Positions 11,957 through 55,295 of a DNA stretch of 64,000 nt are shown piece after piece. A program made the translations under genes and the position numbers. The stretch is from Aeromicrobium panaciterrae (GTDB lineage Bacteria; Actinomycetota; Actinomycetes; Propionibacteriales; Nocardioidaceae). The notes under the pieces are model-generated. The model did not search any database. It was given only the letters and a program-made list of their open reading frames with translations, and was not told the DNA's origin. Position 1 is the stretch's first letter, and each line of letters starts with the position of its first letter. The stretch spans positions 1,240,001-1,304,000 of the forward strand of contig NZ_JAVDWH010000001.1 of assembly GCF_031457275.1 (NCBI RefSeq), in the 5' to 3' direction.

Positions 11957-11975
11957 TGAGGTGAGGCTCGCCTTA
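11957..11975. promoter_or_regulatory. IdeR/DtxR-like iron box
   Basis: TGAGGTGAGGCTCGCCTTA matches 14 of 19 positions of the DtxR/IdeR consensus TTAGGTTAGGCTAACCTAA. It lies 22 bases before the ferritin ATG and 17 bases before the start of the divergent Cys-rich gene. In mycobacteria IdeR with iron activates ferritin genes through such boxes, so iron-dependent control of both genes is likely. Confidence 0.7.
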
Positions 11976-35741: not shown

Positions 35742-36302
35742 ATGAGCACCACCACAGACATCAACGTCAGCACTGGCACCTGGACGATCGACCCGACTCA
35801 CACCGAGATCGGTTTCACCGTCCGCCACATCATCAGCAAGGTGCGCGGCAAGTTCGACACCTTCGAAGGCGCGCTCGTCACTGCTGACGACATCACCACT
35901 TCGTCGGTCAACGTCTCGTTCGACCTGTCGTCGATCAACACCGGCAACACGCAGCGTGACGATCACCTGCGCTCGGGCGACTTCTTCGACGCCGACAACC
36001 AGGACAAGGCGACTTTCGTCTCGACTGGTGTCGTCGCCAAGGGTGGCAACGAGTTCGTCGTGACCGGCGACCTGACCATCAAGGGCGTCTCGAAGGCCGT
36101 CGAGCTCGACGTCGACTTCCTCGGCGAGGGCTCGGACCCGTGGGGCGGAACGCGCGTGGGCGTCGAGGCGACTACCGAGATCAGCCGCAAGGAGTTCGGA
36201 ATCGACTTCAACATCCCGCTCGAGGGCGACAAGGTCGTCATCGGCGACAAGATCTCGATCCACATCGTGGCCGAGGCTGTCCTGCAGGCTGACGCAGCCT
36301 AA
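35742..36302 (+). CDS. YceI-family lipid-binding protein
   Basis: The 186-residue beta-barrel protein starts TGTWTIDPTHTEIGFTVRH and contains SFDLSSINTGNTQRDDHLRSGDFFDA and DLTIKGVSKAVELDVDF, the core YceI motifs. Members bind isoprenoid or fatty chains. There is no signal peptide, so it is cytoplasmic, as in other actinobacterial copies. Regulation by the divergent MarR is likely. The stop overlaps that of the convergent TetR gene by three bases. Confidence 0.92.
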   Translation: MSTTTDINVSTGTWTIDPTHTEIGFTVRHIISKVRGKFDTFEGALVTADDITTSSVNVSFDLSSINTGNTQRDDHLRSGDFFDADNQDKATFVSTGVVAKGGNEFVVTGDLTIKGVSKAVELDVDFLGEGSDPWGGTRVGVEATTEISRKEFGIDFNIPLEGDKVVIGDKISIHIVAEAVLQADAA

Positions 36303-36874
36303 CGAAGCCTGGTCATTCTGACCGCCAGATCGGCGTGCAGGGTGGCCAGCTCGTGGCCGGAGCGAGAACCTCCGGGCTCGAACCAGCGCACGAGATCGAC
36401 GCCCAACGAGAGCAGCGAGAACGCTGTTCCGGGGACGTCAACAACATCCAGGACGCCCTGGTCGACACCGTCGGCCAGGGCGTCTTGCATCGTCTTCTCA
36501 ATGTCCCGGCGATAGGTCGCGACTTCTGCGCGATGTTCGTCGGTCAGCGCGTGGTACTCGTACTGCACGATGCGCCCCACGCGGCTGTTGTCGGCGTGCC
36601 AGAGGCTGAAGTTGTAGACCATGGCGCGCAGCCGGTTGACGGGATCGGTGCTCGACGCGGCAGCTGACGTGATGACTTCAAGCGCGCGACGGTGACCGTC
36701 GAGACTGACGGAGAAGAGCAAGCTCTCCTTGGAGTCGTGGTGCACGTAGACCGCAGCCGGGCTCATGCCGGCGCGGGAGGCAATGTCTCGCGTTGTCGTC
36801 CCCGCGAAACCCTTCTCAGCGAAGGCCTCAACGGCAGCATTGATGAGCCGTTCACGCGCTGTGATGGTCGTCAT
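36299..36874 (-). CDS. TetR-family regulator, probable controller of the acyl-CoA dehydrogenase operon
   Basis: This 191-residue regulator has a typical helix-turn-helix (TTTRDIASRAGMSPAAVYVHHDSKESLL, residues about 26-52) and a C-terminal domain like acyl-CoA-sensing TetRs (RVGRIVQYEYHALTDEHRAEV). AGGAGG precedes the ATG. It is transcribed away from the acyl-CoA dehydrogenase gene, and the CTAAGCAAGCGCTTAG site lies between, so it is the likely owner of that operator. Confidence 0.88.
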   Translation of the reverse strand: MTTITARERLINAAVEAFAEKGFAGTTTRDIASRAGMSPAAVYVHHDSKESLLFSVSLDGHRRALEVITSAAASSTDPVNRLRAMVYNFSLWHADNSRVGRIVQYEYHALTDEHRAEVATYRRDIEKTMQDALADGVDQGVLDVVDVPGTAFSLLSLGVDLVRWFEPGGSRSGHELATLHADLAVRMTRLR

Positions 36875-36918: not shown

Positions 36919-36934
36919 CTAAGCAAGCGCTTAG
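36919..36934. promoter_or_regulatory. TetR-type operator, copy 1
   Basis: CTAAGCAAGCGCTTAG contains inverted six-base arms and, shifted two bases, AGCAAGCGCTTAGT fits the KstR2-like consensus AnCAAGnnCTTGnT except one base. It lies 32 bases before the acyl-CoA dehydrogenase start and 45 bases from the tetR start. The same block occurs in opposite orientation at 53639-53654. Confidence 0.7.
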
Positions 36935-40125: not shown

Positions 40126-40692
40126 CTAGGGCGTCGTCACAGCTCGCCAGCACGCCTCGATCAGCGGATCCACCAAGGATTCGTCGACGCTCCGTTGACT
40201 GGCCGTGAGCCGGACGACTGGGCCAACGGCCAGGTCGAAGAGAACTTCAGGCGGCAGATCAACCATCTGCTCGAGCAGGGCGGCGACCACCGGCGAAGAC
40301 ATCAGCGGATCGTCGAGTGCGGCGATCGCCTTTTCGTGAGCGATCTCTGCGTACGGCGAACTGTCTGCCTGCACCAGAAATCGCGCTCGATCAGGATCGG
40401 CCTCGAGGTGGTGCTGGACGCCAGTCCAGAGCTGGGCGAACTGGTCCCGAGACGTGGCTTTGGCGTCCACGCTGGCCAGGGCTGCCTCGCCCAAGCCCTG
40501 CTTGACCTCGAGGTAGGTGGCGAGCACCAGTTCGTCCTTCGACGCGTAGTGGACGTATGCGGTACCCGTCGCGACCCCGGCCTCTTTGGCGATCGCAGCC
40601 ATGGAGGTGCCATGGAATCCGTCGCGGGCGACCAGCCGGATCAGAGCGTGACGAACCGCCTCCGCCCGATCGACCGCGACAGGGGAGGTCAT
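40126..40692 (-). CDS. TetR-family regulator
   Basis: The 188-residue regulator has a helix-turn-helix around residues 30-52 (SMAAIAKEAGVATGTAYVHYASKDEL). Its start overlaps the stop of the upstream SDR by four bases (40689-40692), so both are one operon. The TGAATG-TT-CATTCA site before the SDR is a good candidate for its own operator, giving autoregulation with the oxidoreductase. Confidence 0.87.
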   Translation of the reverse strand: MTSPVAVDRAEAVRHALIRLVARDGFHGTSMAAIAKEAGVATGTAYVHYASKDELVLATYLEVKQGLGEAALASVDAKATSRDQFAQLWTGVQHHLEADPDRARFLVQADSSPYAEIAHEKAIAALDDPLMSSPVVAALLEQMVDLPPEVLFDLAVGPVVRLTASQRSVDESLVDPLIEACWRAVTTP

Positions 40693-41630
40693 TTCGATCG
40701 CACAGCCTGTGCCACGTCGAGAGTCACGCCGGTCTCACGCTCGGACACGTCCCAGAGCTCCTGGACGTGCTTGTCGAGTCCGATGCGTCGAAGGATGGGG
40801 CGGTTGACGGCGGCCCCGTTCGAAGCGAAGAGAGGACCGTACATCTGACCGCCCTTGGCCTTCGGGTCGGTCGCAGCACGCAGCTGCGGGCGGGCGCCCA
40901 CATGGGGCTTCATGCCGGTGCGAGCGGCAAGGAACTCCGAGGCACTCCCCAGCCATCCTGCGCCGCCCTCGGCCGAGGTGGTGGTCTGTAGGTCCGTCCG
41001 GGAGAGACCTGGATGGGCGAGAAGGCTCTGGGTCGAGACGCCGGCTTCGACGAACTTCTTCTGAAGCCCCAGACCGAAGTGGTAGTTGGCCAACTTGGCC
41101 TGCCCGTAGGAGCGCCAGGCGCCGTAGTTGCCCTTCATGTGCGGATTGTCGGGGTCAATCGGCGTGCCCTGGAAGCGGGCGATGCTGGTGACAGTGACGA
41201 CTCGAGCTCCATCCGTACTGACGATCGCGGGGAGGAGGTGCGCGGTGAAGGCGAAGTGACCAAGGTGGTCCACACCCAGCTGCATCTCGAACCCGTCGAC
41301 GGTGGTGCGCTCAGGCATGGCCATCACACCGGCGTTGTTGATCAGCAAGTCTATCGATGAGTGCTTTGCCAGGATCTTGTCGGCAGCCGCCGCGGTCGAA
41401 GCGAGGTCGCCGAGGTCGAGGGGCACGAGCTCGAGCGAGGCTTTGGGGTGTTTGGCTTGGATGCGTTCGACAGCGTCCTTGGCCTTGTCTTGGTTGCGCA
41501 CGGCCATCACCACGTGTGCACCGGCACCGGCCAGGGCTTCGGCGGACTCGAGGCCGAGACCTCCATTGGCGCCTGTGACGACCGCCGTACGGCCGGACTG
41601 GTCGGGGATGTCGTTCTGGGTCCAACTCAT
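40689..41630 (-). CDS. retinol-dehydrogenase-like SDR oxidoreductase
   Basis: This 313-residue SDR has VTGANGGLG, LINNAGVM, a catalytic region VTVTSIARFQG and YGQAKLAN, the pattern of the light-dependent protochlorophyllide/retinol-dehydrogenase-like branch. The substrate is unknown. ATG 41630 follows AGGAG by five bases; the frame is open further upstream through the operator. Coupled to its TetR regulator, it is likely an inducible detoxifying or lipid-modifying reductase. Confidence 0.87.
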   Translation of the reverse strand: MSWTQNDIPDQSGRTAVVTGANGGLGLESAEALAGAGAHVVMAVRNQDKAKDAVERIQAKHPKASLELVPLDLGDLASTAAAADKILAKHSSIDLLINNAGVMAMPERTTVDGFEMQLGVDHLGHFAFTAHLLPAIVSTDGARVVTVTSIARFQGTPIDPDNPHMKGNYGAWRSYGQAKLANYHFGLGLQKKFVEAGVSTQSLLAHPGLSRTDLQTTTSAEGGAGWLGSASEFLAARTGMKPHVGARPQLRAATDPKAKGGQMYGPLFASNGAAVNRPILRRIGLDKHVQELWDVSERETGVTLDVAQAVRSK

Positions 41631-41645
41631 CGGAGCTCCTATGAC

Positions 41646-41659
41646 TGAATGTTCATTCA
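41646..41659. promoter_or_regulatory. TetR operator before SDR/TetR pair
   Basis: TGAATG-TT-CATTCA is a perfect inverted repeat 15 bases upstream of the SDR start. Position and form fit a TetR operator, most simply that of the TetR encoded second in the operon. Confidence 0.65.
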
Positions 41660-41712
41660 TTCTGCGCTCCTGATCGAGGATCGGTCAACAGGGCGTGATC
41701 CACATCTCTTGA

Positions 41713-41761
41713 AAAACATGAGGAAAACCTCGCATTAAAGTTGAGGTTTCCCTCATGTTTT
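41713..41761. promoter_or_regulatory. fas promoter with paired TGAGG-N4-CCTCA operators
   Basis: Two 14-base sites, TGAGGAAAACCTCG (41719-41732) and TGAGGTTTCCCTCA (41742-41755), lie on either side of TAAAGT (41736-41741), a fitting -10 box. Including flanks, AAAACATGAGGAAAACCTC (41713-41731) and GAGGTTTCCCTCATGTTTT (41743-41761) are inverted repeats with one mismatch in 19. The same motif pair precedes the carboxyltransferase gene at 53.7 kb. Confidence 0.8.
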
Positions 41762-41818
41762 GCGAGACTGGGGTTACCGCCCGTCGATCCCGAGACGGCA
41801 GTACCCGAGGGAACTCAC

Positions 41819-44800
41819 GTGACGACCATCGACACATCGCTTGCCCCGACCCGCACTTCTGAGCGCCGCGGCGCTCTCGTTGACCGCATCGTCGACGGCG
41901 CCCCTTACGCAGTGGGCTTTGGCGGACAGGGTGCCTCGTGGCTGGAGCCGCTGGCCGATCTCGTACGTGACTTCGCCCTGGAGGCGGACCTCGAAGCCCT
42001 GGTGAGTCAGGCCGAGGCAAAGCTCGTTCCTGTCGCTGGCGAGCTCGCTCGCGCTGGCATCACCTTCACGCCTCTGGCGTGGGTTGACGTTCTTGCTGTG
42101 GGGGAGTCGGCCGAAGACGACGACGCTCCTGAGCTGCCCGACACCGACATGCTTGGTACGCCTGGCGTCTCGTTGCCCGGAATCCTTCTGACGCAGCTCG
42201 CCGGGATCCGCGCTCTGCACCGTCAGGGCATTGACACCCAGGTCATCAAGCCGTCCGCCGTGATCGGACACTCGCAGGGCCTCATCGCAGCGCAGTCGCT
42301 CGCCGGTGTCGACGACGTGGAGCTGCTGGCGATCGCACGTCTCGTTGGCGCAGCAGGACAGTTGGTCGGCCGTCGTCGCGGGCTGCTCGGCAACTCGATG
42401 CTGAGCATCTCGAACGTACGCCCCGAGCGCATCGACGAAATCCTCGCTGAGCTGCCGGCATCCCTTCGGGTCGTGGCGCGTATGCGCAACGGTCGTCGGA
42501 GTGTCGTCATCAGCGGTCCGGCCAGCAGCCTCCACGTCGTACAGGCCCATCTCGAAGAGGTTGCAGCTGCTGAGAAGGCCGAGCGTGACCGCAAGACAAC
42601 CGGCGGCACTCCGTTCGCCCCGGTCATCGAGCCGCTGACATCGCAGCTGGCGTTCCACCACCCTGATCTCGCCGAGGCCGCAGACCTCGTCGCGACCTGG
42701 GCGACCGCCTGTGGCATCGACGCCGAACGTGCTCGCGATCTCGCGAAGCGCTCGCTCGTCGACCCGGTCGACTGGGTCGAGTCCCTCGAGACAGCCATGA
42801 ACTCCGGCGCCACCTGGATCCTTGATCTGGGGCCCGGCGACATCGCCGCACGCCTTTCGGCTCGCGAGCTGCGTACGCGCGGCGTTGGCATCATCGCCAC
42901 GACGACACGTCGTGGTCACCGTGAGCTCGTCGCGGCTGGTGCGGCTCCGCGCCTAGCGACTCCGTGGTCGGCCTATGCGCCCAGCGTCGTCACCCTGCCG
43001 GACGGCAGCATCCACGCCGAAACTCGCTTCACTCGTTTGACCGGCAAGTCGCCGATCCTGCTCGCCGGAATGACGCCGACAACGGTTGACGCCAAGATCG
43101 TCGCGGCAGCCGCCAACGCGGGTTTCTGGGCCGAGCTCGCCGGTGGCGGACAGGTCACCGAGCCGATCTTCGCCGACCGCGTCGCTGAGCTGAACGAGTT
43201 GCTGACTCCTGGCAGCACGTTCCAGTTCAACTCGCTGTTCCTCGACCCGTACCTCTGGAAGCTGCAGCTCGGTCAGAAGCGCCTCGTCCAGCGGGCACGC
43301 GCCGCTGGTGCACCCATCGACGCGGTCATCGTCACCGCGGGCATCCCTGAACTTGAAGAAGCCGTCGCACTTGTCTCCGAGCTGCGCGACGCCGACATCA
43401 CGCATGTCGTCTTCAAGCCCGGCACGGTCAAGCAGATCCGCCAGGTTGTCGCGATCGCCAAGGAAGTCGCTCCGACTCCGATCATCGTCCAGATCGAGGG
43501 AGGCAAGGCTGGCGGTCACCACTCGTGGGAAGACCTCGACGACCTGCTCCTCGCCACCTACGGCGAACTGCGCGCTCTCGACAACGTCGTCGTCTGCGTC
43601 GGCGGCGGCATCGGTACGCCCGAGGTCGCTGCGGCCTATCTGTCCGGTGAGTGGGCTCGTCGCCACGACTTCCCCCTGATGCCGCTCGACGGCATCCTCG
43701 TCGGCACCGCTGCCATGGCAACGCTCGAGGCGACCACGGCTCCTGATGTGAAGCAGCTGCTGGTCGACACCCGTGGCACCGGTTCATGGATCGGCGCTGG
43801 CACAGCCAAGGGCGGCATGGCCTCCAGCCTCAGCCAGCTCGGCGCTGACATCCACGAGATCGACAACACCGCCTCGCGTACGGGCCACCTGCTCGACGAG
43901 GTCGCCGGTGACGCCGAAGCCGTTGCCGAACGTCGTGACGAGATCATCGACGCGCTCAATCGCACGGCCAAGCCCTACTTCGGCGATGTCGCAACCATGA
44001 CGTACGCGCAGTGGCTCAGTCGCTTCCTCGAGCTGAGCGGTACCCCGACGTGGCTCGACATCACGATGCAGGAGCGGTTCACCGCAATGCTGCAGCGCGC
44101 TGAAGCTCGCCTTCACTCTGCCGATCGCGGCACGATCCCGACATTGTTCGCCAACGAGTCCAGCGTTGCCTTCGGGGCGACCGCGCTCGACGTGCTGCTT
44201 CGTGCGTACCCCGAAGCTGCCGAAGTGACTCTGCACCCGGGTGACGTGCTGTTCTTCGTCGACCAGTGCAAGACGCCCGGCAAGCCCGTCAACTTCGTAC
44301 CCGTCCTCGACCAGGACGTACGTCGCTGGTGGCGCTCCGACTCGCTCTGGCAGGCACACGATGCCCGCTATGGCGCCGATCAGGTCTGCGTCATCCCCGG
44401 ACCTGTCTCCGTCGGCGGCATCGATCGCGTCGATGAGCCCGTGGCCGAGCTTCTGCGCCGCTTTGAGGACGCCACCATCGATGGCCTGCTTGCTTCCGGT
44501 CGTGCACCGCAGCGCGTTGCAGGTCGTCGCCGCGTCGACGGTGCGGGAGACGTGCTGTCACTCGTGCTCGCCGCTCCCGACCTGGTTTGGGCTGGTCGTA
44601 CGGTTCGCAACCCCGTTCACCGCCTCGGCGCCGACTGGGTCATCGTCGACCCCGAGCGCGCTGAGCACCCGGAGACTGGCGCAACGGTCATCGCGATCGA
44701 CGCTCGTACCGCTGAGCTCCACGTACCGCTTGCACGCCCGCTCTCCCTGCGCATCGACCTCGGCGACGCCGTGGTCGCTGGTGCCGCTCCGGTCGTGACC

Positions 44801-47800
44801 ACCGAGATCGCCGCAGAAGCGATGGGTGCATTGGTTGCCGGCGCCGCCGGTGGAACCGTGCCCAAGATTGCGGATGGTCATGCCACAGTCTCGGTCGATT
44901 GGGATCCGGATCTGATCGCTGACCACGCAGGTGTGACGGGCGCAGACGTGCCGGTGCACCCCGTACCTGACGTGCTCGTCGGACTTGCCTGGCCGTCGGT
45001 GTTCGCCGTGCTCGGCGACGTCACGACTGCCGATGGCATCCCTGTTATCGAAGGCATGCTCGACCTGGTTCACCTCGACCACGCCGTCACTCTCGTCGGC
45101 GCACTGCCGACGGCCCCGGCGAAGCTCACGATCGGTGCGACGGTCGAGTCGGTGTCTGACACCGACTATGGCCGTGTCGTCACCGTCGACGTGACCGTCA
45201 CCTCCTCCGGAAATGACATCGCCAACCTCCGAGAACGCTTTGCCATCCGTGGACGTACGGGCGCCGGCGAGCTTGCCGATCCGGCACGCGCTGGCGGTGC
45301 GCTGGGCGAAGATGTCCAGGACACCCCGCGCAAGTCGCGTGGCTCCGCGTCCGTGGTCGCGCCGACCGATCTGCGGGCGTTCGCCGCAGTCACCGGCGAC
45401 CACAACCCGATCCACACCAGCATTGCCGCGGCCCGCCTCGCGGGACTCGGCGATCCGATCGTCCACGGCATGTGGGTGTCGGCCGCCGCGCAGCAAATCG
45501 TCTCCGGTCGCCGCATCACCGGCTGGACGACACGCTTCATGGCGCCCGTACGTCCGGGTGCGACTGTCGACGTCCGCGCTGATCGTGTCGGCCTGGATGC
45601 TGGCGCTGAGGTCCTCGACATCAGCTGCCGCGTCGAGGGTGAGGTCGTCATGGCCGCCACCGCTCGCCTCGAGGCGCCGCGCACGGCGTACGCCTTCCCG
45701 GGTCAGGGCATTCAGCACGCCGGTATGGGTATGGCCGCGTACGCGCGCTCCAAGGCAGCCCGCGAGATCTGGGATCGCGCCGACGCACACACTCGCGAAG
45801 CCCTCGGCTTCTCGATCCTGAATGTCGTCCGCGACAACCCGACGGTTCTCGTCGCTCAGGGCGTCACGCACAAGCACCCCGATGGCGTGCTGTTCCTGAC
45901 CCAGTTCACCCAGGTGGCCATGGCCGTCCTCGGTGCCGCACAGATGGCCGAGCTTCGTGAAGCTGGCGCCTTCGTCGAAGGATCGATCCTCGCGGGTCAC
46001 TCTGTTGGTGAATACAACGCTCTCGCCGCCGTCTCGGGCGTCATCGCTCTCGAAGGTGTTGTCGAGGTTGTCTTCCAGCGCGGTTCGGTCATGCACACGC
46101 TCGTGGAGCGTGACGCTGAGGGACGCAGCGACTACCGCCTCGCGGCGATCCGACCGTCGCAGATCGGACTGGTCGACGACAACGTCAAGGAGTTCGTTGA
46201 CGGGATCGCCGAGCAGTCGGGCGAGTTCCTCCAGATCGTCAACTACAACCTCCGCGACTCGCAGTACGCGATCGCCGGCACCGTACGTGGCCTCGAGATT
46301 CTCGAGACCGCGGTCAACAAACGTCGTGACGAGTTCGGTGGCAAGGGTGCCTTCATCCTGATCCCGGGCATCGATGTGCCGTTCCACTCGACGGTGCTGC
46401 GTGGAGGTGTGCCGGACTTCCGTGCGCGACTCGACGAGCTGCTGCCGCCGACGATCGACCCGGCCATCCTTGCGGGTCGGTACGTACCGAACCTCGTGCC
46501 CAAGCCGTTCTCGCTGGATCGCGCGTTCATCCAGGAGATCGCCGATCTCGTACCGTCTGAGCCGCTCGACGGAGTCCTCGCAGACTTCGCCGCGTGGTCC
46601 AAGAAGCCCGGCGAGCTGTGCCGTGTTGTCCTCATCGAGCTTCTGGCCTGGCAGTTCGCCAGCCCGGTGCGCTGGATCGAGACGCAGGACCTGATGTTCG
46701 GTGAGCTCGGTGTCGAGCGATTCATCGAGGTCGGCGTTGGCCAGGCACCTACGGTCGCCAACCTCGCGTCGCAGACGCTGAAGCTTCCGGGCCGTCACGG
46801 CGGACCTGTCGAGGTGCTCAACTTCGAGCGCGACAGCGCCGCAGTCTTCAGCACCGATGAGGAGATGGTTGAGTTCGAGGAGGATGAGGCAGTAGTCGAG
46901 ATGCCCACCTCGGATGCGGCTTCGCCGAGTGTTCAACTGGTCACCTCGATGACGACCAGTGGTCCGCGTCCTGCTGACATCACCTTCGATGCCGCTGACG
47001 CGACCACGGTCCTCATCGCTTGGTGGACCAAGATGCGCATCGACCAGATCGGTGCCGCCGACTCGATTGAGTCGCTGTGCGATGGAGCGTCCTCTCGACG
47101 CAACCAGCTGCTCGTCGACCTGGGCGGAGAACTCGGCCTCGGTGCCATTGATGGTGCTGCTGACGCTGACCTGCCGACGCTGTCTGGCCAGGTCAAGGGC
47201 CTCGCGCGTGGATACAAGGCCTTCGGCCAGGTACTCACTGAAGCACTCGGCGATCACCTCAAGAAGGTGCTCGGACCGACCGGCAAGCGTCAGGCGTACG
47301 TCGCCGAGCGCGTTACTGACGTCTGGCAGCTGGAACCGGGTTGGGCGAGTCACGTGCTCGCCGAGCTCGCGATGTCGAGCCGCGAGGGTGCAAGTGTTCG
47401 CGGCGGTGACTTCGGTTCGCTCAGTGGCCTCGCCACGGGTGCCGATGTCGACGCTGCGATCGATGCCAGCGTTGCGGCAGTCGCCTCGCGCCACGGTGTG
47501 AGCGTCGACCTCCCGTCGACTGGCGGAGGAGAAGCCACGATTGATGCTGCGGCAATGGCTGAGTTCACCTCGCAGATCACCGGACCTGACGGCGTACTCG
47601 CCTCTGCTGCCCGCCTCGTACTCGACCAGCTCGGTCTCAACGAGCAGCCGATCGTGGCGGAGCCCAACGCGGATGATGCCGAGATTCTTGCTCGCGTCGA
47701 GTCTGAGCTCGGCAGCGACTGGGCCAAGCTCACCGCACCCGCGTTCGATTCTGACAAGGCCGTGCAGCTGGACGACCGTTGGGCCAGCGCACGCGAGGAT

Positions 47801-50800
47801 CTCGCGCGCATCGTCCATGGCGACAACCTGGACGTCAGCTTCGTGGGCGCCGGCAAGGCGCTTGCGGCTCAGGCTCAGTGGCATGCGACGAACGGTGATC
47901 CGGCCCGCAAGGACCGCTTCGCCCAGATCGCGACCGACGCTCTTACCGAGCCGAGTGCTCCGTGGGCTGGCGAGACCGCAGTTGTGACCGGCGCAAGCCA
48001 GGGCTCGATCGCTGCCGGAATCACCGGCCAGCTTCTTGCTGGTGGCGCCACGGTCGTGGCGACGACGTCGGGTCTTGATCCGAAGCGCCTCGCGTTCTAC
48101 CGCGAGCTCTACCGCACGCACGCCATCAACGGTGCTGCTCTGTGGGTTGTCCCGGCCAACATGGCATCCTTCGCTGACGTCGACGCGCTCACTGAGTGGA
48201 TCGGCGCCGAGCAGACGCAGACACGTGCCGGTACGACGACGGTGCTCAAGCCCGCCATGACACCGACCCTGCTTTTCCCGTTCGCAGCGGGCCGCGTGGC
48301 CGGCGACATGTCGGACGTAGGAAGCCGCACCGAGATCGACATGCGTGTTCTGCTGTGGTCGGTCGAGCGCCTGATCACCTCGCTGTCGGCGCACGGTCAG
48401 GACCACGACATCGACGCAACGCTGCACGTTGTGATTCCCGGATCGCCCAACCGTGGCATGTTCGGTGGCGACGGTGGCTACGGCGAGGCCAAGGCTGCTC
48501 TCGATGCCCTCGTCACCCGCTGGAAGGCCGAGCCTGCGTGGGCCAACCGCGTCTCGCTTAGCCACGCCATCATCGGCTGGGTACGCGGCACGGGCCTCAT
48601 GGGCGGCAATGACCCGCTGGTCGAGGCCGTAGAGGCCGCTGGCGTACGCACGTGGACGCCTGACGAAATGGCCGCAGCGCTGCTCGAGACCTGCACGGCT
48701 GAGGCTCGCGCTGCAGCTCACATCGAGCCGCAGACAGTCGACCTCACAGGTGGGCTTGGCGGAGTGAACCTCGACATGCGTGCACTCGCCGAAGGTGTCG
48801 AGCGGCCTGCAGTCGAGGCCGAGGACGAGACCGGCATGATCGCCGCCTTGGCCCCGTCGCCGGCACAGCTCGACCGAGTCGACACCCTCGACTGGGCGCC
48901 GCTCGAGGCGCGTCCTGAGGACCTCGTCGTCATGGTTGGCGCCGGAGAGCTCGGCCCGTACGGCTCCTCGCGCACACGCTTCGAGGTCGAAGTGACCGAC
49001 GAGCTGTCGGCCGCCGGAATCCTCGAGCTTGCCTGGACCACAGGGCTCGTCGCCTGGGACACCAACGCTGGTGGCTGGTACGACACGGCCTCGCAAGAGA
49101 GTGTCGATGAGGCTGATCTCGCCGATCGTTATGAAGAGGCAGTCCGCGAAGCTTGTGGCATCCGCCGCTACGTCGACGAAGGCAACATGGTCGACAACGC
49201 AGCACCGCTGCTGACGTCGGTCTTCCTCGACAAGGACCTGTCGTTCACAGTCTCCAACGAGTCCGAAGCCAAGGCACTCCGCGACGCGGACCCCGAGCGT
49301 ACGGTCATCGCGGCGACAGCCGACGGCGACTGGACCGTGACCCGCAAGGCCGGCACCGAGATCCGCGTGCCGCGCCGACTAAAGCTGACCCGTACGGTCG
49401 GCGGCCAGATCCCGACCGGCTTCGATCCCACGGTGTGGGGAATCCCAGCCGAGATGGTCGAGTCGATCGACCGCGTCGGCCTGTGGAACCTCGTCTGCAC
49501 CGTTGACGCATTCCTCTCGAGCGGCTTCGAACCGTCGGAGCTCATGCGTTGGGTTCACCCGGCGATGGTGGCCAACACGCAGGGCACCGGCATGGGCGGC
49601 ATGCAGTCGATGCAGTCGCTCTACCTCGACACGCTGCTGGGTGAGAACAAGGCCAACGACATCCTCCAGGAGGCGTTGCCCAACGTCATCGCAGCGCACG
49701 TCGTGCAGTCGTACGTCGGCTCGTACGGCGCGATGGTTCACCCCGTCGCCGCCTGCGCAACGACCGCGGTGTCTGTCGAAGAAGGCGTCGACAAGATCAA
49801 GCTCGGCAAGGCGGACTTCGTCGTCGCCGGCGGATTCGATGACCTGAGCGTTGAAGGCATCGTCGGCTTCGCTGACATGTCAGCCACGGCCGACTCGGCA
49901 GCCATGAAGGCCAAGGGCATTGAGGACCGCTACTTCAGCCGCGGCAACGACCGCCGCTACGGCGGATTCGTCGAGTCACAGGGCGGCGGAACGATTCTCC
50001 TTGCGCGCGGCGATGTCGCTGCCCGCATGGGTCTGCCTGTGCTCGCAGTCGTCGCGTACGCCGGATCGTTCGCTGACGGTGTCCACACCTCGATCCCGGC
50101 TCCGGGCATCGGTGCACTGGCAGCAGGCCGCGGCGGACGCGAGTCCGCTCTGGCGAAGTCGCTGGCGCAGGTCGGTCTGACCGCCGACGACATCGGCGTG
50201 CTGTCGAAGCACGACACGTCGACGGGCGTCAACGAGCGCAACGAGTCCGAGCTCCATGAGCGTCTTGCGGCGGCAATCGGCCGCAGCGAGGGCAACCCGC
50301 TCTACGTCATCTCGCAGAAGACCCTCACAGGTCACGCGAAGGGTGGAGCGGCAGCGTTCCAGCTCATCGGACTCAGCCAGGTGCTCACGGGTGGAGTCGT
50401 TCCTCCAAACCGCAGTCTCGACTGCGTCATGGACGACCTCGCCGAGCACGAGCACCTCGTCTGGCTCCGTGAGCCGCTGGCGACCGGTCAGCTGAAGGCG
50501 GGCCTCGTGACGAGCCTCGGCTTCGGTCACGTGGCGGGCCTGATCGCGCTGGTCAACCCCCAAGCCTTCCTTGCAACCCTCACGGCGGAGGAGCGAGACT
50601 CCTACGCCACCCGCGCGGAAGCGCGGACGATCGGGGGCCGGATGCGTCTGGTTCGGGCAATGTACGGCGGCCCCTCGCTGTACGAACGTCCCGACCGTCG
50701 CCTCGGTAGCGAGGGAGTGCGGGCACGGGAGGCTGCGATGCTCCTGGATCCGCAAGCACGACTGGGTGAGGGAGACATCTACCAGTCGGTGTCATGCCAA

Positions 50801-50803
50801 TGA
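41819..50803 (+). CDS. fas: type I fatty acid synthase
   Basis: This 2994-residue multienzyme builds acyl-CoA from acetyl-CoA and malonyl-CoA. Domains in order: acetyltransferase (GHSQGLIAA, near 151), enoyl reductase barrel (EGGKAGGHHSWED, near 560), MaoC-like dehydratase (TGDHNPIHTS, near 1193), malonyl/palmitoyl transferase (AGHSVGEYNALA, near 1393), acyl carrier region (DGASSRRNQLL, near 1755), ketoreductase (VTGASQGS, near 2054) and ketosynthase (AACATTAVSVEEG near 2646; KTLTGHAKGG near 2835). GTG 41819 follows GAGGGA; upstream in-frame codons lie in the operators. acpS overlaps the stop. Confidence 0.96.
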   Translation: MTTIDTSLAPTRTSERRGALVDRIVDGAPYAVGFGGQGASWLEPLADLVRDFALEADLEALVSQAEAKLVPVAGELARAGITFTPLAWVDVLAVGESAEDDDAPELPDTDMLGTPGVSLPGILLTQLAGIRALHRQGIDTQVIKPSAVIGHSQGLIAAQSLAGVDDVELLAIARLVGAAGQLVGRRRGLLGNSMLSISNVRPERIDEILAELPASLRVVARMRNGRRSVVISGPASSLHVVQAHLEEVAAAEKAERDRKTTGGTPFAPVIEPLTSQLAFHHPDLAEAADLVATWATACGIDAERARDLAKRSLVDPVDWVESLETAMNSGATWILDLGPGDIAARLSARELRTRGVGIIATTTRRGHRELVAAGAAPRLATPWSAYAPSVVTLPDGSIHAETRFTRLTGKSPILLAGMTPTTVDAKIVAAAANAGFWAELAGGGQVTEPIFADRVAELNELLTPGSTFQFNSLFLDPYLWKLQLGQKRLVQRARAAGAPIDAVIVTAGIPELEEAVALVSELRDADITHVVFKPGTVKQIRQVVAIAKEVAPTPIIVQIEGGKAGGHHSWEDLDDLLLATYGELRALDNVVVCVGGGIGTPEVAAAYLSGEWARRHDFPLMPLDGILVGTAAMATLEATTAPDVKQLLVDTRGTGSWIGAGTAKGGMASSLSQLGADIHEIDNTASRTGHLLDEVAGDAEAVAERRDEIIDALNRTAKPYFGDVATMTYAQWLSRFLELSGTPTWLDITMQERFTAMLQRAEARLHSADRGTIPTLFANESSVAFGATALDVLLRAYPEAAEVTLHPGDVLFFVDQCKTPGKPVNFVPVLDQDVRRWWRSDSLWQAHDARYGADQVCVIPGPVSVGGIDRVDEPVAELLRRFEDATIDGLLASGRAPQRVAGRRRVDGAGDVLSLVLAAPDLVWAGRTVRNPVHRLGADWVIVDPERAEHPETGATVIAIDARTAELHVPLARPLSLRIDLGDAVVAGAAPVVTTEIAAEAMGALVAGAAGGTVPKIADGHATVSVDWDPDLIADHAGVTGADVPVHPVPDVLVGLAWPSVFAVLGDVTTADGIPVIEGMLDLVHLDHAVTLVGALPTAPAKLTIGATVESVSDTDYGRVVTVDVTVTSSGNDIANLRERFAIRGRTGAGELADPARAGGALGEDVQDTPRKSRGSASVVAPTDLRAFAAVTGDHNPIHTSIAAARLAGLGDPIVHGMWVSAAAQQIVSGRRITGWTTRFMAPVRPGATVDVRADRVGLDAGAEVLDISCRVEGEVVMAATARLEAPRTAYAFPGQGIQHAGMGMAAYARSKAAREIWDRADAHTREALGFSILNVVRDNPTVLVAQGVTHKHPDGVLFLTQFTQVAMAVLGAAQMAELREAGAFVEGSILAGHSVGEYNALAAVSGVIALEGVVEVVFQRGSVMHTLVERDAEGRSDYRLAAIRPSQIGLVDDNVKEFVDGIAEQSGEFLQIVNYNLRDSQYAIAGTVRGLEILETAVNKRRDEFGGKGAFILIPGIDVPFHSTVLRGGVPDFRARLDELLPPTIDPAILAGRYVPNLVPKPFSLDRAFIQEIADLVPSEPLDGVLADFAAWSKKPGELCRVVLIELLAWQFASPVRWIETQDLMFGELGVERFIEVGVGQAPTVANLASQTLKLPGRHGGPVEVLNFERDSAAVFSTDEEMVEFEEDEAVVEMPTSDAASPSVQLVTSMTTSGPRPADITFDAADATTVLIAWWTKMRIDQIGAADSIESLCDGASSRRNQLLVDLGGELGLGAIDGAADADLPTLSGQVKGLARGYKAFGQVLTEALGDHLKKVLGPTGKRQAYVAERVTDVWQLEPGWASHVLAELAMSSREGASVRGGDFGSLSGLATGADVDAAIDASVAAVASRHGVSVDLPSTGGGEATIDAAAMAEFTSQITGPDGVLASAARLVLDQLGLNEQPIVAEPNADDAEILARVESELGSDWAKLTAPAFDSDKAVQLDDRWASAREDLARIVHGDNLDVSFVGAGKALAAQAQWHATNGDPARKDRFAQIATDALTEPSAPWAGETAVVTGASQGSIAAGITGQLLAGGATVVATTSGLDPKRLAFYRELYRTHAINGAALWVVPANMASFADVDALTEWIGAEQTQTRAGTTTVLKPAMTPTLLFPFAAGRVAGDMSDVGSRTEIDMRVLLWSVERLITSLSAHGQDHDIDATLHVVIPGSPNRGMFGGDGGYGEAKAALDALVTRWKAEPAWANRVSLSHAIIGWVRGTGLMGGNDPLVEAVEAAGVRTWTPDEMAAALLETCTAEARAAAHIEPQTVDLTGGLGGVNLDMRALAEGVERPAVEAEDETGMIAALAPSPAQLDRVDTLDWAPLEARPEDLVVMVGAGELGPYGSSRTRFEVEVTDELSAAGILELAWTTGLVAWDTNAGGWYDTASQESVDEADLADRYEEAVREACGIRRYVDEGNMVDNAAPLLTSVFLDKDLSFTVSNESEAKALRDADPERTVIAATADGDWTVTRKAGTEIRVPRRLKLTRTVGGQIPTGFDPTVWGIPAEMVESIDRVGLWNLVCTVDAFLSSGFEPSELMRWVHPAMVANTQGTGMGGMQSMQSLYLDTLLGENKANDILQEALPNVIAAHVVQSYVGSYGAMVHPVAACATTAVSVEEGVDKIKLGKADFVVAGGFDDLSVEGIVGFADMSATADSAAMKAKGIEDRYFSRGNDRRYGGFVESQGGGTILLARGDVAARMGLPVLAVVAYAGSFADGVHTSIPAPGIGALAAGRGGRESALAKSLAQVGLTADDIGVLSKHDTSTGVNERNESELHERLAAAIGRSEGNPLYVISQKTLTGHAKGGAAAFQLIGLSQVLTGGVVPPNRSLDCVMDDLAEHEHLVWLREPLATGQLKAGLVTSLGFGHVAGLIALVNPQAFLATLTAEERDSYATRAEARTIGGRMRLVRAMYGGPSLYERPDRRLGSEGVRAREAAMLLDPQARLGEGDIYQSVSCQ

Positions 50804-51189
50804 CGATCCTTGGGGTTGGTGTCGATCTGGTCCACGTTCCTACGTTCGCGGACCAGCTTGACCAGCCCGGTACGAGGTTCGCCGAGGCATTCTCACCTGG
50901 CGAGCGGAGTGATGCGCGGAGTGGTCCCTCCAATCCCGCGCGTCACTTCGCCGCTCGCTGGGCTGCCAAGGAAGCTGTGATCAAGGCCTGGTCGGCGTCG
51001 ATGTATGGCGAGGCGCCTGTCATGGATGAGGGCATCCATCATCTGATCGAGGTTGTCACCGACGCGTGGGGACGGCCGCGCATTCGACTGCATGGCGAAG
51101 TAGCCAAGAGGCTCACTGGGCACACCCTTGAGGTGTCGCTCAGTCACGACGGCGACTACGCCACCGCGTACGTCATCCTGTCCGACTGA
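50800..51189 (+). CDS. acpS: holo-ACP synthase
   Basis: This 129-residue phosphopantetheinyl transferase has the GVGVDLV motif at the N-terminus and FAARWAAKEAVIKA with the metal-binding Glu. It would load the FAS I carrier domain. The ATG at 50800 overlaps the fas stop by four bases; an ATG six bases earlier is also possible. Fusion or coupling of AcpS with FAS I is normal in actinobacteria. Confidence 0.95.
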   Translation: MTILGVGVDLVHVPTFADQLDQPGTRFAEAFSPGERSDARSGPSNPARHFAARWAAKEAVIKAWSASMYGEAPVMDEGIHHLIEVVTDAWGRPRIRLHGEVAKRLTGHTLEVSLSHDGDYATAYVILSD

Positions 51190-51197
51190 GGCGCCCG

Positions 51198-51818
51198 CTA
51201 CTCCGAGTGCTCGGCGCTCAGCAGGTACGCCATCACGAGACGCTTGAGCTCGATGACCGCCTCGGTGTGCTCCTGGCCATCGCGGATCGAGAAGTTGAGC
51301 ATCGAGTAGACGACGTGCACCAGCACCTCGGCCATGATCGTGCGGCGTTCGCGCGGTGTGCCCGGCGTCAGGGGAGCCAGGGCCTTGGCTACCTCGGCGG
51401 CAAGCTCACGCTCAGTAACAGCCGCCGTGGCCCTAGTGGCGGGTGTCGACTGAACCGCGAGCCAGACAGCGCGGCGCGAGGGGTCGTCGACCCACATCTT
51501 GGCCATGTGGTCGACGAGTCGGTTGAGGAACTTCAGCCAGTCGAGTGACGGGATCGCCTCGGCGAATGACGCCAGTTCCATGCGTACGGCCACAGCGTCG
51601 ACGCGGTCGAGCTCGCAAACCATGACGTACTTGTTCTGGAAGAACTGGTACAGCGTGCCGATCGGCAGGCCCGCGCGATGTGCGACTTCCTCGCAGGTGA
51701 ACGACTCGAACCCGACCTCGAGCAGCAGCTCGCGAGCCACCAACAAGAGGTAGTCAAACTTCTTGTGGCTGCGCTCCTGGGTCGGGCGGCGCCTGGGTTC
51801 GAGAATCTCGGCCGTCAC
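51198..51818 (-). CDS. TetR-family regulator next to fas-acpS
   Basis: The 206-residue regulator begins with a basic arm (EPRRRPTQERSHKKF) and a helix-turn-helix (TCEEVAHRAGLPIGTLYQFFQNKYVMV). It follows the kinase gene by ten bases on the same strand and faces acpS tail to tail. Candidate targets are the TGAGG-N4-CCTCA sites of fas and accD, or the CTAAGC operator that heads its own operon. I cannot choose from sequence, and it does not closely resemble what I recall of mycobacterial FasR. Confidence 0.85.
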   Translation of the reverse strand: MTAEILEPRRRPTQERSHKKFDYLLLVARELLLEVGFESFTCEEVAHRAGLPIGTLYQFFQNKYVMVCELDRVDAVAVRMELASFAEAIPSLDWLKFLNRLVDHMAKMWVDDPSRRAVWLAVQSTPATRATAAVTERELAAEVAKALAPLTPGTPRERRTIMAEVLVHVVYSMLNFSIRDGQEHTEAVIELKRLVMAYLLSAEHSE

Positions 51819-51828
51819 GCCGTTGACC

Positions 51829-52860
51829 CTAGCGCGAAGCGGCGCGTCCTGCGGCGATCAATGGCTCAATCATGTCGCCGATTCCATCGAACCCGCCGCC
51901 AACCGTCTGGCCCGCCGAGTGCCTGAAATGGATGCCTTCGAGGATCACAGCGAGCTTGAAGAATGCCAGCGACAGGTGGAACGAGATGTTGCTGACGTCC
52001 CTGCCGGACTTGGCGGCATAGCGCTCAAGAGTGTCATGACGACTGAGGTAGCCGGGAGCCAGAGGCGCGTCCGTGACCATCGCTGCGCCCATGCTTGAGG
52101 GCGGTGCCTCCTCGGCGAGCTGCTGATAGGCCAACAGCACCGCGACGTCCGTCAGCGGATCCCCGAGTGTGCTCATCTCCCAGTCGAGCACAGCCGTGAT
52201 GTTGTCGGAGTCGTCAACCAGCACGTTGTCGAGCCGGTAGTCGCCGTGCACGATCGTGCCGTCACTCGACGTCGGAATGTTGGCATCCAACTGGGCGATG
52301 AGCTCGTCCATGCCGGGGAGCTCACGGCTCGTAGATGCAGCGAGCTGCTTCTTCCAGCGTGAGACCTGCCGCTCGAGGTATCCGTTCGGCCGACCGAATT
52401 CGGACAAGCCGACCGCGGCGTAGTCGACGGCGTGCAGAGCGGCCAGCGTGTCGACCAACTGTTCGGTGATCGCTTGGGTGCGGTCGGCACCGAGCGGCTT
52501 GAGCTGTTCGGCCCGTCCGTACGGAGTCCCGTCGGCCTTCGCCATGACGTAGAACGGTGCACCGATGACGTCAACGTCCTCGCAGTGGGCCAGTGTCTGC
52601 GGCACCGGCACATCTGTGTCGCCCAGGGCGGCCATGACGGTGTACTCGCGACTCATGTCGTGTGCCGTGGCGAGCACATGGCCCAGGGGAGGGCGGCGTA
52701 CGACGTAGTCCGTCGCTCCATCGCTCACCAGGTAGGTGAGGTTGGACTTGCCGCCCGTGATCAGGCCGGCCGACAGCTCACCCGTGGCGAGTGTCGGCGC
52801 ATTCGCCGACAGCCAGGTGTGCAGCGCAGCAAGATCGAGCCCCTTCGGATCTTCGGACAT
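51829..52860 (-). CDS. aminoglycoside-phosphotransferase-like kinase (ACAD10/11 N-terminal type)
   Basis: This 343-residue protein has the APH/choline-kinase catalytic loop HGDYRLDNVL, the metal-binding LDWEMSTLGDP and a Gly-rich N-terminal GGKSNLTYLV. Members of this group next to acyl-CoA dehydrogenases or SDRs phosphorylate 4-hydroxyacyl-CoA in animals, so an acyl-CoA-linked role is more likely here than drug resistance. Its ATG overlaps the SDR stop by one base. Confidence 0.82.
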   Translation of the reverse strand: MSEDPKGLDLAALHTWLSANAPTLATGELSAGLITGGKSNLTYLVSDGATDYVVRRPPLGHVLATAHDMSREYTVMAALGDTDVPVPQTLAHCEDVDVIGAPFYVMAKADGTPYGRAEQLKPLGADRTQAITEQLVDTLAALHAVDYAAVGLSEFGRPNGYLERQVSRWKKQLAASTSRELPGMDELIAQLDANIPTSSDGTIVHGDYRLDNVLVDDSDNITAVLDWEMSTLGDPLTDVAVLLAYQQLAEEAPPSSMGAAMVTDAPLAPGYLSRHDTLERYAAKSGRDVSNISFHLSLAFFKLAVILEGIHFRHSAGQTVGGGFDGIGDMIEPLIAAGRAASR

Positions 52861-53615
52861 CAGCAGAGCGGCCCGCCAGCGACGTAGATGACCTGGCCGG
52901 ACACGAAGCCGGCGCCTTCGCTGACGAGGTACGAGACAGCGTGGGCGATGTCCTCGGGCTGGCCAACCCGCTGGACGGGAATCTGCTCGGCACTGAACTT
53001 GATGAAGTCATCGAACGCGACGCCGAGGCGCTCAGCCGTGGAGGCCGTCATGTCGGTCTGGATGAAGCCGGGTGCGATCGCGTTGGCGGTGACGCCAAAC
53101 TTGCCGAGCTCGATCGCCAACGTCTTCGTGAAGCCCTGGACGCCAGCCTTGGCGGCCGAGTAGTTGGCCTGGCCGCGGTTGCCGAGAGCCGAGCTGCTGG
53201 AGAGGTTGACGATGCGGCCCCACTTGGCCTCAGTCATGTACTTCTGAGCGCTCTTGGTCATCAGGAATGCTCCGCGCAAGTGCACGTTCATGACGGTGTC
53301 CCAGTCGTCCGTCGTCATCTTGAAGAGCATGTTGTCGCGGATGACACCGGCATTGTTGATCAGCACGGTCGGAGCGCCGAGGTCTGACTCGATGCGGGCG
53401 AAGGCGGCCTTGACCTGCTCCTCGTCGCTGACGTTTGCGCCGACTGCGAGGGCTGATCCACCGGCGGCGGTGATGGCATCGACGGTTCCAGCGCAGGACG
53501 CCTCGTCGAGGTCGACGACGGCGACCTTAAACCCGTCGGCCGAAAGTCGCTGGGCCACTCCGGCGCCGATTCCTCGGGCTCCGCCGGTGACGATCGCGGT
53601 ACGGGCTTCACTCAC
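52860..53615 (-). CDS. FabG-like short-chain dehydrogenase/reductase
   Basis: This 251-residue SDR has VTGGARGIGAG, NNAGVIRDN, catalytic Ser in NLSSSSALGNRGQ and YSAAK, then APGFIQTDM, close to 3-oxoacyl-ACP/CoA reductases. GTG 53615 follows AAGGAG by eight bases. The CTAAGC operator lies 24 bases upstream. It is the first gene of the SDR-kinase-TetR operon and may reduce 3-oxoacyl substrates, although FAS I carries its own ketoreductase. Confidence 0.88.
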   Translation of the reverse strand: MSEARTAIVTGGARGIGAGVAQRLSADGFKVAVVDLDEASCAGTVDAITAAGGSALAVGANVSDEEQVKAAFARIESDLGAPTVLINNAGVIRDNMLFKMTTDDWDTVMNVHLRGAFLMTKSAQKYMTEAKWGRIVNLSSSSALGNRGQANYSAAKAGVQGFTKTLAIELGKFGVTANAIAPGFIQTDMTASTAERLGVAFDDFIKFSAEQIPVQRVGQPEDIAHAVSYLVSEGAGFVSGQVIYVAGGPLC

Positions 53616-53638
53616 TGTTTTGCTCCTTCGAAGGTGAC

Positions 53639-53654
53639 CTAAGCGCTTGCTTAG
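53639..53654. promoter_or_regulatory. TetR-type operator, copy 2
   Basis: CTAAGCGCTTGCTTAG is the reverse complement of the site at 36919-36934, and identity extends to 18 bases (TGCTAAGCAAGCGCTTAG on the minus strand). It sits before the SDR start at a distance normal for operators, linking this operon to the acyl-CoA dehydrogenase operon 17 kb away. Confidence 0.7.
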
Positions 53655-53731
53655 CAAGTTCCTCAGAACCGTATCGCAGACGAACCGCGCACGCGAGAGC
53701 CAGATCACTCAAAAACATCGCTCACGGAAAG

Positions 53732-53773
53732 TGAGGTTTTCCTCATGTTTGTGTATAGTTGAGGAAAACCTCA
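53732..53773. promoter_or_regulatory. accD promoter with paired TGAGG-N4-CCTCA operators
   Basis: TGAGGTTTTCCTCA (53732-53745) and TGAGGAAAACCTCA (53760-53773) are perfect palindromic sites, each followed by TGTTT. Between them TATAGT (53754-53759) directly adjoins the second site, as TAAAGT does before fas. A third partial element (AAAAACATCGCTCAC) lies at 53711-53725. Confidence 0.8.
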
Positions 53774-53789
53774 TGTTTTAGGAGTCGTC

Positions 53790-55295
53790 GTGTCGCAACG
53801 TGAAACACCTTCGGTGCTCTCAGCGCCTGACGAGACTGGTCATCGCTCGATGCTTACGCAGCGTCGTGCCGATCGGTTCGCCCACGTCGAGCCCAAGGGC
53901 AAGCGGGTCTACACGGCACTTCAGCGTGCCGAGATGCTCGTCGACGAGGGCTCCTTCGTGTCCATGACACCGTTGCGCTCTGCCGGCGCCGGTCAGGGCA
54001 GCGGCGTCATTGCCGGATGGGGTACGACCGACGGTCACCCGCTCGTCGTCGTCTCGCACGACGCAGCGGTGGCCTCTGGTGCGATCGGCGCAGTCATGGC
54101 CGAGAGCATTCAGAAGGCTCAGCGTTTCGCGATCGACAAGGGCTACCCGATCGTCTACATCAACGACTCGGGTGGAGCTCGCATCCACGACGGCATCTTC
54201 GCGCTGCACGGTTGTGGCGGCATCTTCGCGCTCAACATTGAGGCGCAGAAGCGCATCCCGCAGATCTCGCTGATCCTGGGCCCGTGCGCCGGCGCTGCCG
54301 CGTACTCACCAGCTCTGACCGACTGGACGATCATGGTCAAGGAGCAGGGACAGATGTTCCTGACCGGCCCGGACATCGTCAAGGCGGCCACCGGCGAGGA
54401 CGCTTCAGCGGAAGATATCGGTGGATCAGACCTCCACACCCGCGTCAGCGGCGTTGCTCACCTCGAGGTCGACAACGAAGAAGAGGCGTTCCACGCGACA
54501 CGCCTGCTGCTGTCGTTCCTGCCGACCCACAAGGGTGGTGCGCAGAAGCGCCACAGCCCCGTACCGGCCAACCCCGGCGCCGTTGAGCGCCTGCCTGGCA
54601 TCGTCCCGGAGAAGTCCAGCATCGTCTTCGACATGAATGCCGTCATGGACGGTGTCCTCGACAACGGTGCGCGCCTCGAGCTCATGCCGACGCATGCGCC
54701 GAGCATCCTCACGCTGTTCGCCCGCCTCGACGGTCACGCGGTCGGCGTCATCGCCAACCAGTCCGACGCCCGCGGCGGCATCCTCGACTCCAAGGCAGCC
54801 GTCAAGGCCGCGCGGTTCGTGGACTTCTGTGGCCGCTTTGACCTCCCGGTCATCACATTCGTCGACGTTCCCGGCTTCCTGCCCGGCACGGTCGAAGAGG
54901 GTCGCGGCATCATCACGCATGGTGCCAAGCTCCTCAAGGCGTACGTCGAGACGACGTCGCCCAAGCTCACGGTCGTCGTGCGCAAGGCGTACGGCGGCGC
55001 GTACATCGCAATGGGCGCTGCGTCGCTCGGTGCCGACGTCAACTGGGCCTGGGCTCAGTCCGAGATCGCGGTGATGGGTCCCGGCGGCGCCGTCGCGTTA
55101 CTTCATCGACGTGCGCTCAAGGAAGCCGAGGAGCCGACCGTGCTTCGCGACGAGCTTGCTGCTGTCTACCGCGAGGAAGTCGCTCGCCCCTATTTGGCCG
55201 CTGAGGCCGGTATCGTCGACGATGTGATCCATCCCGAGGAGACACGCGACCGTATGACTGCGGCGCTTCGCATGCTCACCGCCGGCACCGCCTGA
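53790..55295 (+). CDS. accD: acyl-CoA carboxylase carboxyltransferase subunit
   Basis: This 501-residue carboxyltransferase has both halves of the crotonase-like fold in one chain: PIVYINDSGGARIHDGIFAL and GPCAGAAAYSPALTDW in the first, VDVPGFLPGTVEEGRGIITHGAKLL and RKAYGGAYIAMGA in the second. It transfers CO2 from biotin to acetyl-CoA or propionyl-CoA. GTG 53790 follows AGGAG. It shares its operator pair with fas and overlaps the biotin carrier gene. No biotin carboxylase gene is in the window. Confidence 0.93.
   Translation: MSQRETPSVLSAPDETGHRSMLTQRRADRFAHVEPKGKRVYTALQRAEMLVDEGSFVSMTPLRSAGAGQGSGVIAGWGTTDGHPLVVVSHDAAVASGAIGAVMAESIQKAQRFAIDKGYPIVYINDSGGARIHDGIFALHGCGGIFALNIEAQKRIPQISLILGPCAGAAAYSPALTDWTIMVKEQGQMFLTGPDIVKAATGEDASAEDIGGSDLHTRVSGVAHLEVDNEEEAFHATRLLLSFLPTHKGGAQKRHSPVPANPGAVERLPGIVPEKSSIVFDMNAVMDGVLDNGARLELMPTHAPSILTLFARLDGHAVGVIANQSDARGGILDSKAAVKAARFVDFCGRFDLPVITFVDVPGFLPGTVEEGRGIITHGAKLLKAYVETTSPKLTVVVRKAYGGAYIAMGAASLGADVNWAWAQSEIAVMGPGGAVALLHRRALKEAEEPTVLRDELAAVYREEVARPYLAAEAGIVDDVIHPEETRDRMTAALRMLTAGTA

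Follow-up and report, generated by a model that had tools for sequence, protein, structure and literature searches.

Paired putative operator sites before fas and accD in Aeromicrobium panaciterrae and a neighbouring candidate for a Corynebacterium glutamicum-type FasR repressor

We analysed a 64-kb stretch of the Aeromicrobium panaciterrae genome (the window; bases 1240001-1304000 of a genome that is one contig of 2,818,240 bp), in which the genes for type I fatty acid synthase (FAS I) and an acyl-CoA carboxylase carboxyltransferase are preceded by similar pairs of palindromic sites. Plain coordinates refer to the window, and coordinates marked G000:C1 refer to the whole genome. The gene order is fas (+), acpS (+), TetR (-), APH (-), SDR (-) and accD (+). 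The fas gene (41819-50803, plus strand) starts with GTG and encodes a FAS I of 2994 amino acids, the best segments of which were 70-89% identical to Aeromicrobium compared with 58-69% to other actinobacterial genera. Its end is overlapped by acpS (50794-51189, plus strand), a holo-acyl carrier protein synthase gene (NF000831, above the cut-off). A TetR regulator gene (51198-51818, minus strand) is convergent with acpS and forms an apparent operon with the genes for an APH-family phosphotransferase (51829-52860, minus strand) and a FabG-like SDR oxidoreductase (52860-53708, minus strand), the latter heading the operon; L136 and L163 have the same gene order. The true start of the SDR gene is probably the GTG at 53615, judged from the preceding AAGGAG. 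The product of accD (53790-55295, plus strand) matched hidden Markov models that do not separate acetyl- from propionyl-CoA use.

An earlier note on this DNA had described two TGAGG-N4-CCTCA sites before fas and two before accD. The paired sites were confirmed with one base corrected. Three cores are exact, 41742-41755 (TGAGGTTTCCCTCA), 53732-53745 (TGAGGTTTTCCTCA) and 53760-53773 (TGAGGAAAACCTCA), whereas that at 41719-41732 (TGAGGAAAACCTCG) has one mismatch, its final base being G and not A. The first fas site (41716-41735, plus strand) lies in the -35 region, and the second (41742-41758, minus strand) covers the predicted transcription start; the first accD site (53732-53748, minus strand) also lies in a -35 region and is followed by the second (53760-53776, minus strand). 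As previously described, the -10-like hexamers TAAAGT (41736-41741, plus strand) and TATAGT (53754-53759, plus strand) end immediately before the second site of each pair, and TGTTT stands 3' of three of the sites on the same side. The fourth site, at 41719, carries the matching extension on the opposite side, with AAACA in front. Since AAACA precedes this site and TGTTT follows the other three, each belongs to a wider ACATGAGG-N4-CCTCATGT palindrome, and in all four at least one side extends to ACATGAGG or CCTCATGT. The exact 14-mer was found 3 times in the 64 kb compared with about 0.07 expected from base composition. The statement that the window holds no other copies was correct for exact copies, but 14-mers with one mismatch were present at 11962, 37109 and 51129.

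The spacing of the two fas sites was 23 bp in 16/16 loci (13 Aeromicrobium including the window, 2 Mumia and 1 Propionibacteriales metagenome-assembled genome), and that of the accD sites was 28 or 29 bp in 29/29 evaluable loci. The accD set held 30 loci, of which L182 was excluded for having no gene start while L179 and L183 were included; 17 further accD matches had no locus. The hexamer before the second accD site was TATAGT in 22 of the 29 loci (21/27 and 1/2), and that before the second fas site was TAAAGT or TAAACT in 12 of 16. The accD sites of Mumia were also paired, with a spacing of 30 bp and no clear hexamer. Many sites of Gordonia, Rhodococcus and Nocardia lay 150-350 bases 5' of the start codon with no visible pairing around a -10 element. 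Thus, among the loci examined, the promoter-straddling layout appears to be a feature of Aeromicrobium and Mumia. The fas leader also contains, 3' of the operators, an inverted repeat CCGTCGATCCCGAGACGG (41781-41798) that is largely conserved in the genus.

In the whole genome, the exact 14-mer occurred at 10 places: once before fas, twice before accD, once before the 6-phosphofructokinase gene (pfk) and six times elsewhere. Five of the six (622731, 1095645, 1107360, 1380208 and 2772404) were rejected as they read like coding sequence by eye, that at 1095645 falling within the gene of a Mycobacterium tuberculosis-type FasR homologue; the sixth is at 2042447. The 15-base form AAACATGAGGNNNNCCTCA, expected 0.002 times per genome from base composition, had four exact places and one place with one mismatch, and the next best had two mismatches. 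These five places were fas (two), accD (two) and pfk (one). Matches at many unrelated genes, which the earlier note had named as evidence against a shared regulator, were therefore not seen at 0-1 mismatch, pfk being the one non-lipid target. The 17-mer ACATGAGGNNNNCCTCA was found in 37/37 genomes of the genus, our own included; a sum made by hand, in which a full palindrome counts on both strands, gave 133 strand matches, and the reversed control had none. Among 21 genomes of the same order outside the genus, 1 had a match and 2 had a control match. Of the 17-mer places from the genus search, 34 were inspected; one of them (L264) lies outside the genus, and another (L275) is fas.

We also compared the sequences upstream of fas in other genera. 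The motif preceded fas in 44/44 named loci with a best match of at most 3 mismatches in 16 positions; these loci came from Aeromicrobium, Mumia, Speluncibacter, Gordonia, Rhodococcus, Antrihabitans, Nocardia, Williamsia and one metagenome-assembled genome. Five of the original 49 loci (L124, L128, L157, L160 and L164) were dropped because the fas start was unusable or the locus was not a close relative. A search of the Nocardia family covered 201 genomes, 181 of which matched, and among the loci of the 30 best-scoring of these genomes the TGAGG motif was present before fas in 24. The other six had no TGAGG motif and instead carried a near-copy (2-4 mismatches) of the oligonucleotide crystallized with M. 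tuberculosis FasR, TACCCGTACGTAGAACTCGCCAGTA. These six loci, labelled Mycobacterium-like because of that sequence, presumably come from Mycobacterium. In L215 and L244 from this search, two TGAGG-type sites upstream of fas, spaced by about 142 bp, enclose a GTTACTCGCC-like sequence that resembles the repeats ahead of fas in Mycobacterium-like loci. Since both element types are present there, both regulators may act on fas in these two loci.

The TetR encoded at 51198-51818, between the two target promoters, is likely the cognate regulator of the sites. Its relatives (50-92% identity) share invariant residues in the third helix and adjoin acpS and fas in the loci inspected, including those of Corynebacterium-like and TGAGG-bearing genera. 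TetR 51198 was found in 32 of 50 genomes, our own included. Among the 39 genomes in which the region upstream of fas could be read, a fas site with at most 3 mismatches was present in 24/27 TetR-positive and 0/12 TetR-negative genomes (Fisher 1.2e-7, kinship ignored), so that regulator and site are inherited together. In the scan for fas sites, G146, G086 and G119 had no TetR result. Of the 50 genomes, 11 are outside the 39: our own genome, three TetR-positive genomes with fas sites (G188, G176 and G114), six with neither TetR nor a fas match (G083, G090, G094, G159, G196 and G229), and G258, which has the TetR and no fas match. Of the 12 TetR-negative genomes, 6 appear to be Mycobacterium and 6 Corynebacterium, so the regulator was probably lost two or more times. 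A rough TetR helix pattern, untried on positives, had no match in 20 stretches that were non-fas or unassigned. The AlphaFold2 model of TetR 51198 (predicted local distance difference test, pLDDT, 85.4; predicted template modelling score, pTM, 0.82) resembled several acyl-CoA-binding TetR proteins, and the DesT-palmitoyl-CoA structure had the best TM-score (0.75) among the 50 solved-structure matches listed.

Taken together, the four sites are very probably fasO operators of a C. glutamicum-type FasR repressor encoded at 51198-51818. The earlier proposal that one regulator sets FAS I and malonyl-CoA supply together is supported by the conservation of the motif, which is kept before both fas and accD within the genus and before fas in related genera as well, the carboxyltransferase being the presumed feeder of FAS I. 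The same note called the system analogous to FasR control. A FasR-type relation held up, but it looks closer than analogy, because a candidate regulator lies within the window and its position and targets match those of C. glutamicum FasR. In the proposed mechanism, a FasR dimer would bind each ACATGAGG-N4-CCTCATGT palindrome; the fas and accD promoters would each take one dimer over the -35 region and a second over the -10 and start region. With both promoter regions covered, the dimers would exclude RNA polymerase, and expression of fas-acpS and accD would be lowered together. The signal would most likely be long-chain acyl-CoA, the FAS I product, providing end-product feedback when it is plentiful.

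According to PMC6460773, C. glutamicum FasR (cg2737) represses accBC, accD1, fas-IA (cg2743) and fas-IB via fasO. Acyl-CoAs are named as effectors in PMC7316851, PMC7851686 and PMC10355004. The tag numbers cg2737 and cg2743 place C. glutamicum fasR near fasA, as the window TetR is near fas. The intervening cg2738 we take to be acpS. The Aeromicrobium system shares with C. glutamicum FasR/fasO (PMC6460773 and PMC7316851) a TetR gene near fas and operators before FAS I and carboxyltransferase genes. A TetR fold close to acyl-CoA-sensing members is a further common feature. The Aeromicrobium operators differ in being paired and straddling a -10-like hexamer at fas and accD, in their additional sites at pfk and a gene for a 56-amino-acid protein, and in the apparent operon of the TetR with SDR and APH genes. 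An S20N mutation of C. glutamicum FasR is mentioned in PMC7316851. An invariant Ser of the family is residue 17 in TetR 51198 and, among Corynebacterium-like relatives, 22 in L371 and L373, 16 in L372 and 30 in L374; S20N may affect this Ser, but the numbering depends on the chosen start and hence decides nothing. With M. tuberculosis FasR (PMC7382501 and PMC7652896), the window TetR would share the role of a TetR-fold regulator of a fas-acpS operon sensing long acyl-CoA. The window TetR differs in scoring 20.7 bits against a cut-off of 330 for NF053731 and in its operator, and the M. tuberculosis-type homologue is a separate gene in the Aeromicrobium genome. M. tuberculosis FasR is presumably Rv3208. 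Pseudomonas DesT, an acyl-CoA-binding TetR that controls desaturation genes, is similar in structure but only 18% identical to the window TetR.

Several observations weigh against this assignment. Orthology to C. glutamicum FasR would rest on position, targets and co-occurrence, and kinship among the compared genomes means that the Fisher value treats them as more independent than they are. Three TetR-positive Corynebacterium-like genomes (G274, G267 and G219) had only fas sites with 4-5 mismatches, which can arise by chance, as a best match of at most 5 mismatches occurred in 11% of random upstream regions. The labels Mycobacterium-like and Corynebacterium-like are ones that we infer. The match to DesT is weak evidence, since many TetR proteins have this fold. 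No plus-strand promoter was called at fas or accD by a general sigma-70 scan; the hexamers are thus -10-like by position and conservation, as parts of putative promoters. The loose 14-mer (at most 2 mismatches) occurred 54 times in the window compared with 34.6 in shuffles, and this mild enrichment indicates that the signal resides in the exact, flanked sites. Unlike in C. glutamicum, no site with at most one mismatch was found at a biotin carboxylase gene in our genome, where that gene was not located.

The earlier note had also listed a genome FasR homologue among the proteins to be checked for binding, and such a gene of the M. tuberculosis type exists at G000:C1:1095121-1095702. Its product scored 243 bits with NF053731 (the next TetR scored 70), yet below the curated cut-off of 330, and matched structure 6o6p with a phmmer E value of 2.7e-52. 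The gene is located between neighbours that we take to be a MoeB-like gene and a small DUF3107-like gene. Homologues of this type (E <= 1e-25) were found in 10/10 genomes tested, 6 of them above the cut-off. However, the M. tuberculosis FasR crystal oligonucleotide (PMC7382501) contains no TGAGG palindrome, and the segment GVSKPVLYQHF is identical in M. tuberculosis FasR and 1095121-1095702; an identical recognition segment with a different operator argues against this protein as the TGAGG binder. The six loci with the crystal-oligonucleotide sequence before fas had no TGAGG site. Conversely, no copy of it was found upstream of fas in the window (best match 12/25 mismatches), and the mismatches were 11-13 in 9 named Aeromicrobium loci and 9-13 in the 27 TetR-positive genomes. 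Because the M. tuberculosis-type family is present in TGAGG-bearing genomes (the six TGAGG-less genomes were outside this search), it does not explain the absence of TGAGG elsewhere. We therefore rejected this homologue, the less likely binder, and consider it improbable that it acts on the TGAGG sites. The alternative that the window TetR is the right protein but activates its targets, or that acyl-CoA releases it from DNA, appeared similarly improbable. According to PMC7382501, M. tuberculosis FasR works as an activator and acyl-CoA disrupts its binding to DNA, so the sign can differ among fas regulators. In the Rhodococcus- and Nocardia-type loci the sites are far 5' of the start codon. Against activation, the sites straddle the -10-like hexamer at 16 fas and 29 accD loci, and PMC6460773, PMC7851686 and PMC7316851 call C. 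glutamicum FasR a repressor.

TetR genes are frequently under their own operator. Most Aeromicrobium loci compared have kept a CTAAGCGCTTGCTTAG palindrome (53639-53654 in the window), outside the TGAGG set, ahead of the SDR-APH-TetR operon, which raises the possibility that TetR 51198 binds this palindrome while another protein binds TGAGG. However, exact TAAGC-N4-GCTTA was found in L136 and L163, both with SDR-APH, and in none of the TetR-bearing Mumia, Gordonia, Rhodococcus, Nocardia-type and Corynebacterium-like stretches. In addition, the second window copy (36920) stands directly before another TetR gene, 36299-36874, whose product is a better candidate binder. The palindrome was thus rejected as the operator of TetR 51198 because it is not conserved together with this gene, and we regard this explanation as slightly less probable still than the previous two. 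CTAAGC-N4-GCTTAG lies at 36919-36934 and 53639-53654, the only two places of TAAGC-N4-GCTTA in the window. With copies before both TetR 36299-36874 and the SDR-APH-TetR operon, TetR 36299 may regulate the fasR operon as well as its own gene. The palindromes could also be terminators or RNA hairpins, and a scan flagged short stem-plus-T patterns at 41742, 53721, 53731 and 53760. However, the stems have only 5-6 pairs, the half-sites are conserved at a fixed distance from the -10-like hexamer, the motif is 5' of such a hexamer at pfk, and folding of the fas leader was no better than that of shuffles (z -1.13). The hairpin reading was rejected on these grounds and seems scarcely credible.

The C. 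glutamicum-type FasR regulon probably also takes in 6-phosphofructokinase and a small protein gene. In our genome, a AAACATGAGGNNNNCCTCA-type site lies 14 bases before the GTG of the ATP-dependent 6-phosphofructokinase gene, which was identified with NF005301 (615 bits, cut-off 400). Loci from 30 of 43 matching genomes of the genus were compared; the site was found about 40 bases 5' of the start in 22/30, our own included, and was absent from 8/30, compared with 0/60 control windows. In many loci a TANNAT-like hexamer directly follows the site and the start codon is a few bases further, which suggests a leaderless transcript. The site was within 100 bp upstream of the gene for the 56-amino-acid protein in 17/17 loci, a count biased by the choice of loci for carrying the site; L275, a weak match (E 0.43), was left out. 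Our genome has a site with 2 mismatches at 1460579, a fasO-like site in front of its own copy of this gene (G000:C1:1460603-1460773; L058 1525-1695). Three copies of the protein had no match in Pfam. In relatives, a TACCG...GTA-like element lies further upstream of the gene. The site also precedes a 3-hydroxybutyryl-CoA dehydrogenase gene in G004, G009, G020, G027, G031 and G032 (3 proteins scanned). In the TetR-positive Corynebacterium-like G219 (L327), the variant site TGACGGTATCCTCA is directly before accBC (biotin carboxylase and biotinyl domain), a gene published as a target of C. glutamicum FasR, and this speaks for the C. glutamicum-type assignment.

The locus is largely explained by a functional-looking C. 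glutamicum-type FasR/fasO regulon in Aeromicrobium, a regulon type already known. What is new is the candidate for the regulator, the division of FasR into two families by their operators, and the site at phosphofructokinase, which suggests a link to glycolysis. For genera other than the models, FAS I control thereby gains a conserved operator and a regulator candidate, and two TetR families with different operators may explain why FasR is reported to repress in Corynebacterium and to activate in Mycobacterium. We lean slightly towards a broader picture. In it, the Aeromicrobium FasR regulon would reach pfk and the conserved 56-amino-acid protein, so that one acyl-CoA-sensing repressor would govern the flow of carbon from glycolysis, at its committed step, into fat. 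Alongside this, two TetR proteins that are not orthologous, both called FasR in the literature, would coexist in FAS I actinobacteria, Mycobacterium having lost the repressor and kept the other. Text searches, judged by titles and abstract openings, showed no paper on the link to phosphofructokinase. A search for Aeromicrobium with FasR and fatty acid found no paper either. Corynebacterium is not mentioned in the main text of two M. tuberculosis FasR papers.

Two further elements were observed. A TGAATGTTCATTCA palindrome at 41646-41659 precedes a minus-strand SDR-TetR pair (40126-41660; the SDR start is probably near 41630) and is perhaps the own operator of the TetR of this pair. ACATGAGGTCCACCTCA recurs in four Aeromicrobium genomes (L249, L274, G024 and G035), and in L249 and L274 it is flanked by a ferredoxin-like gene on one side and a GNAT gene on the other.

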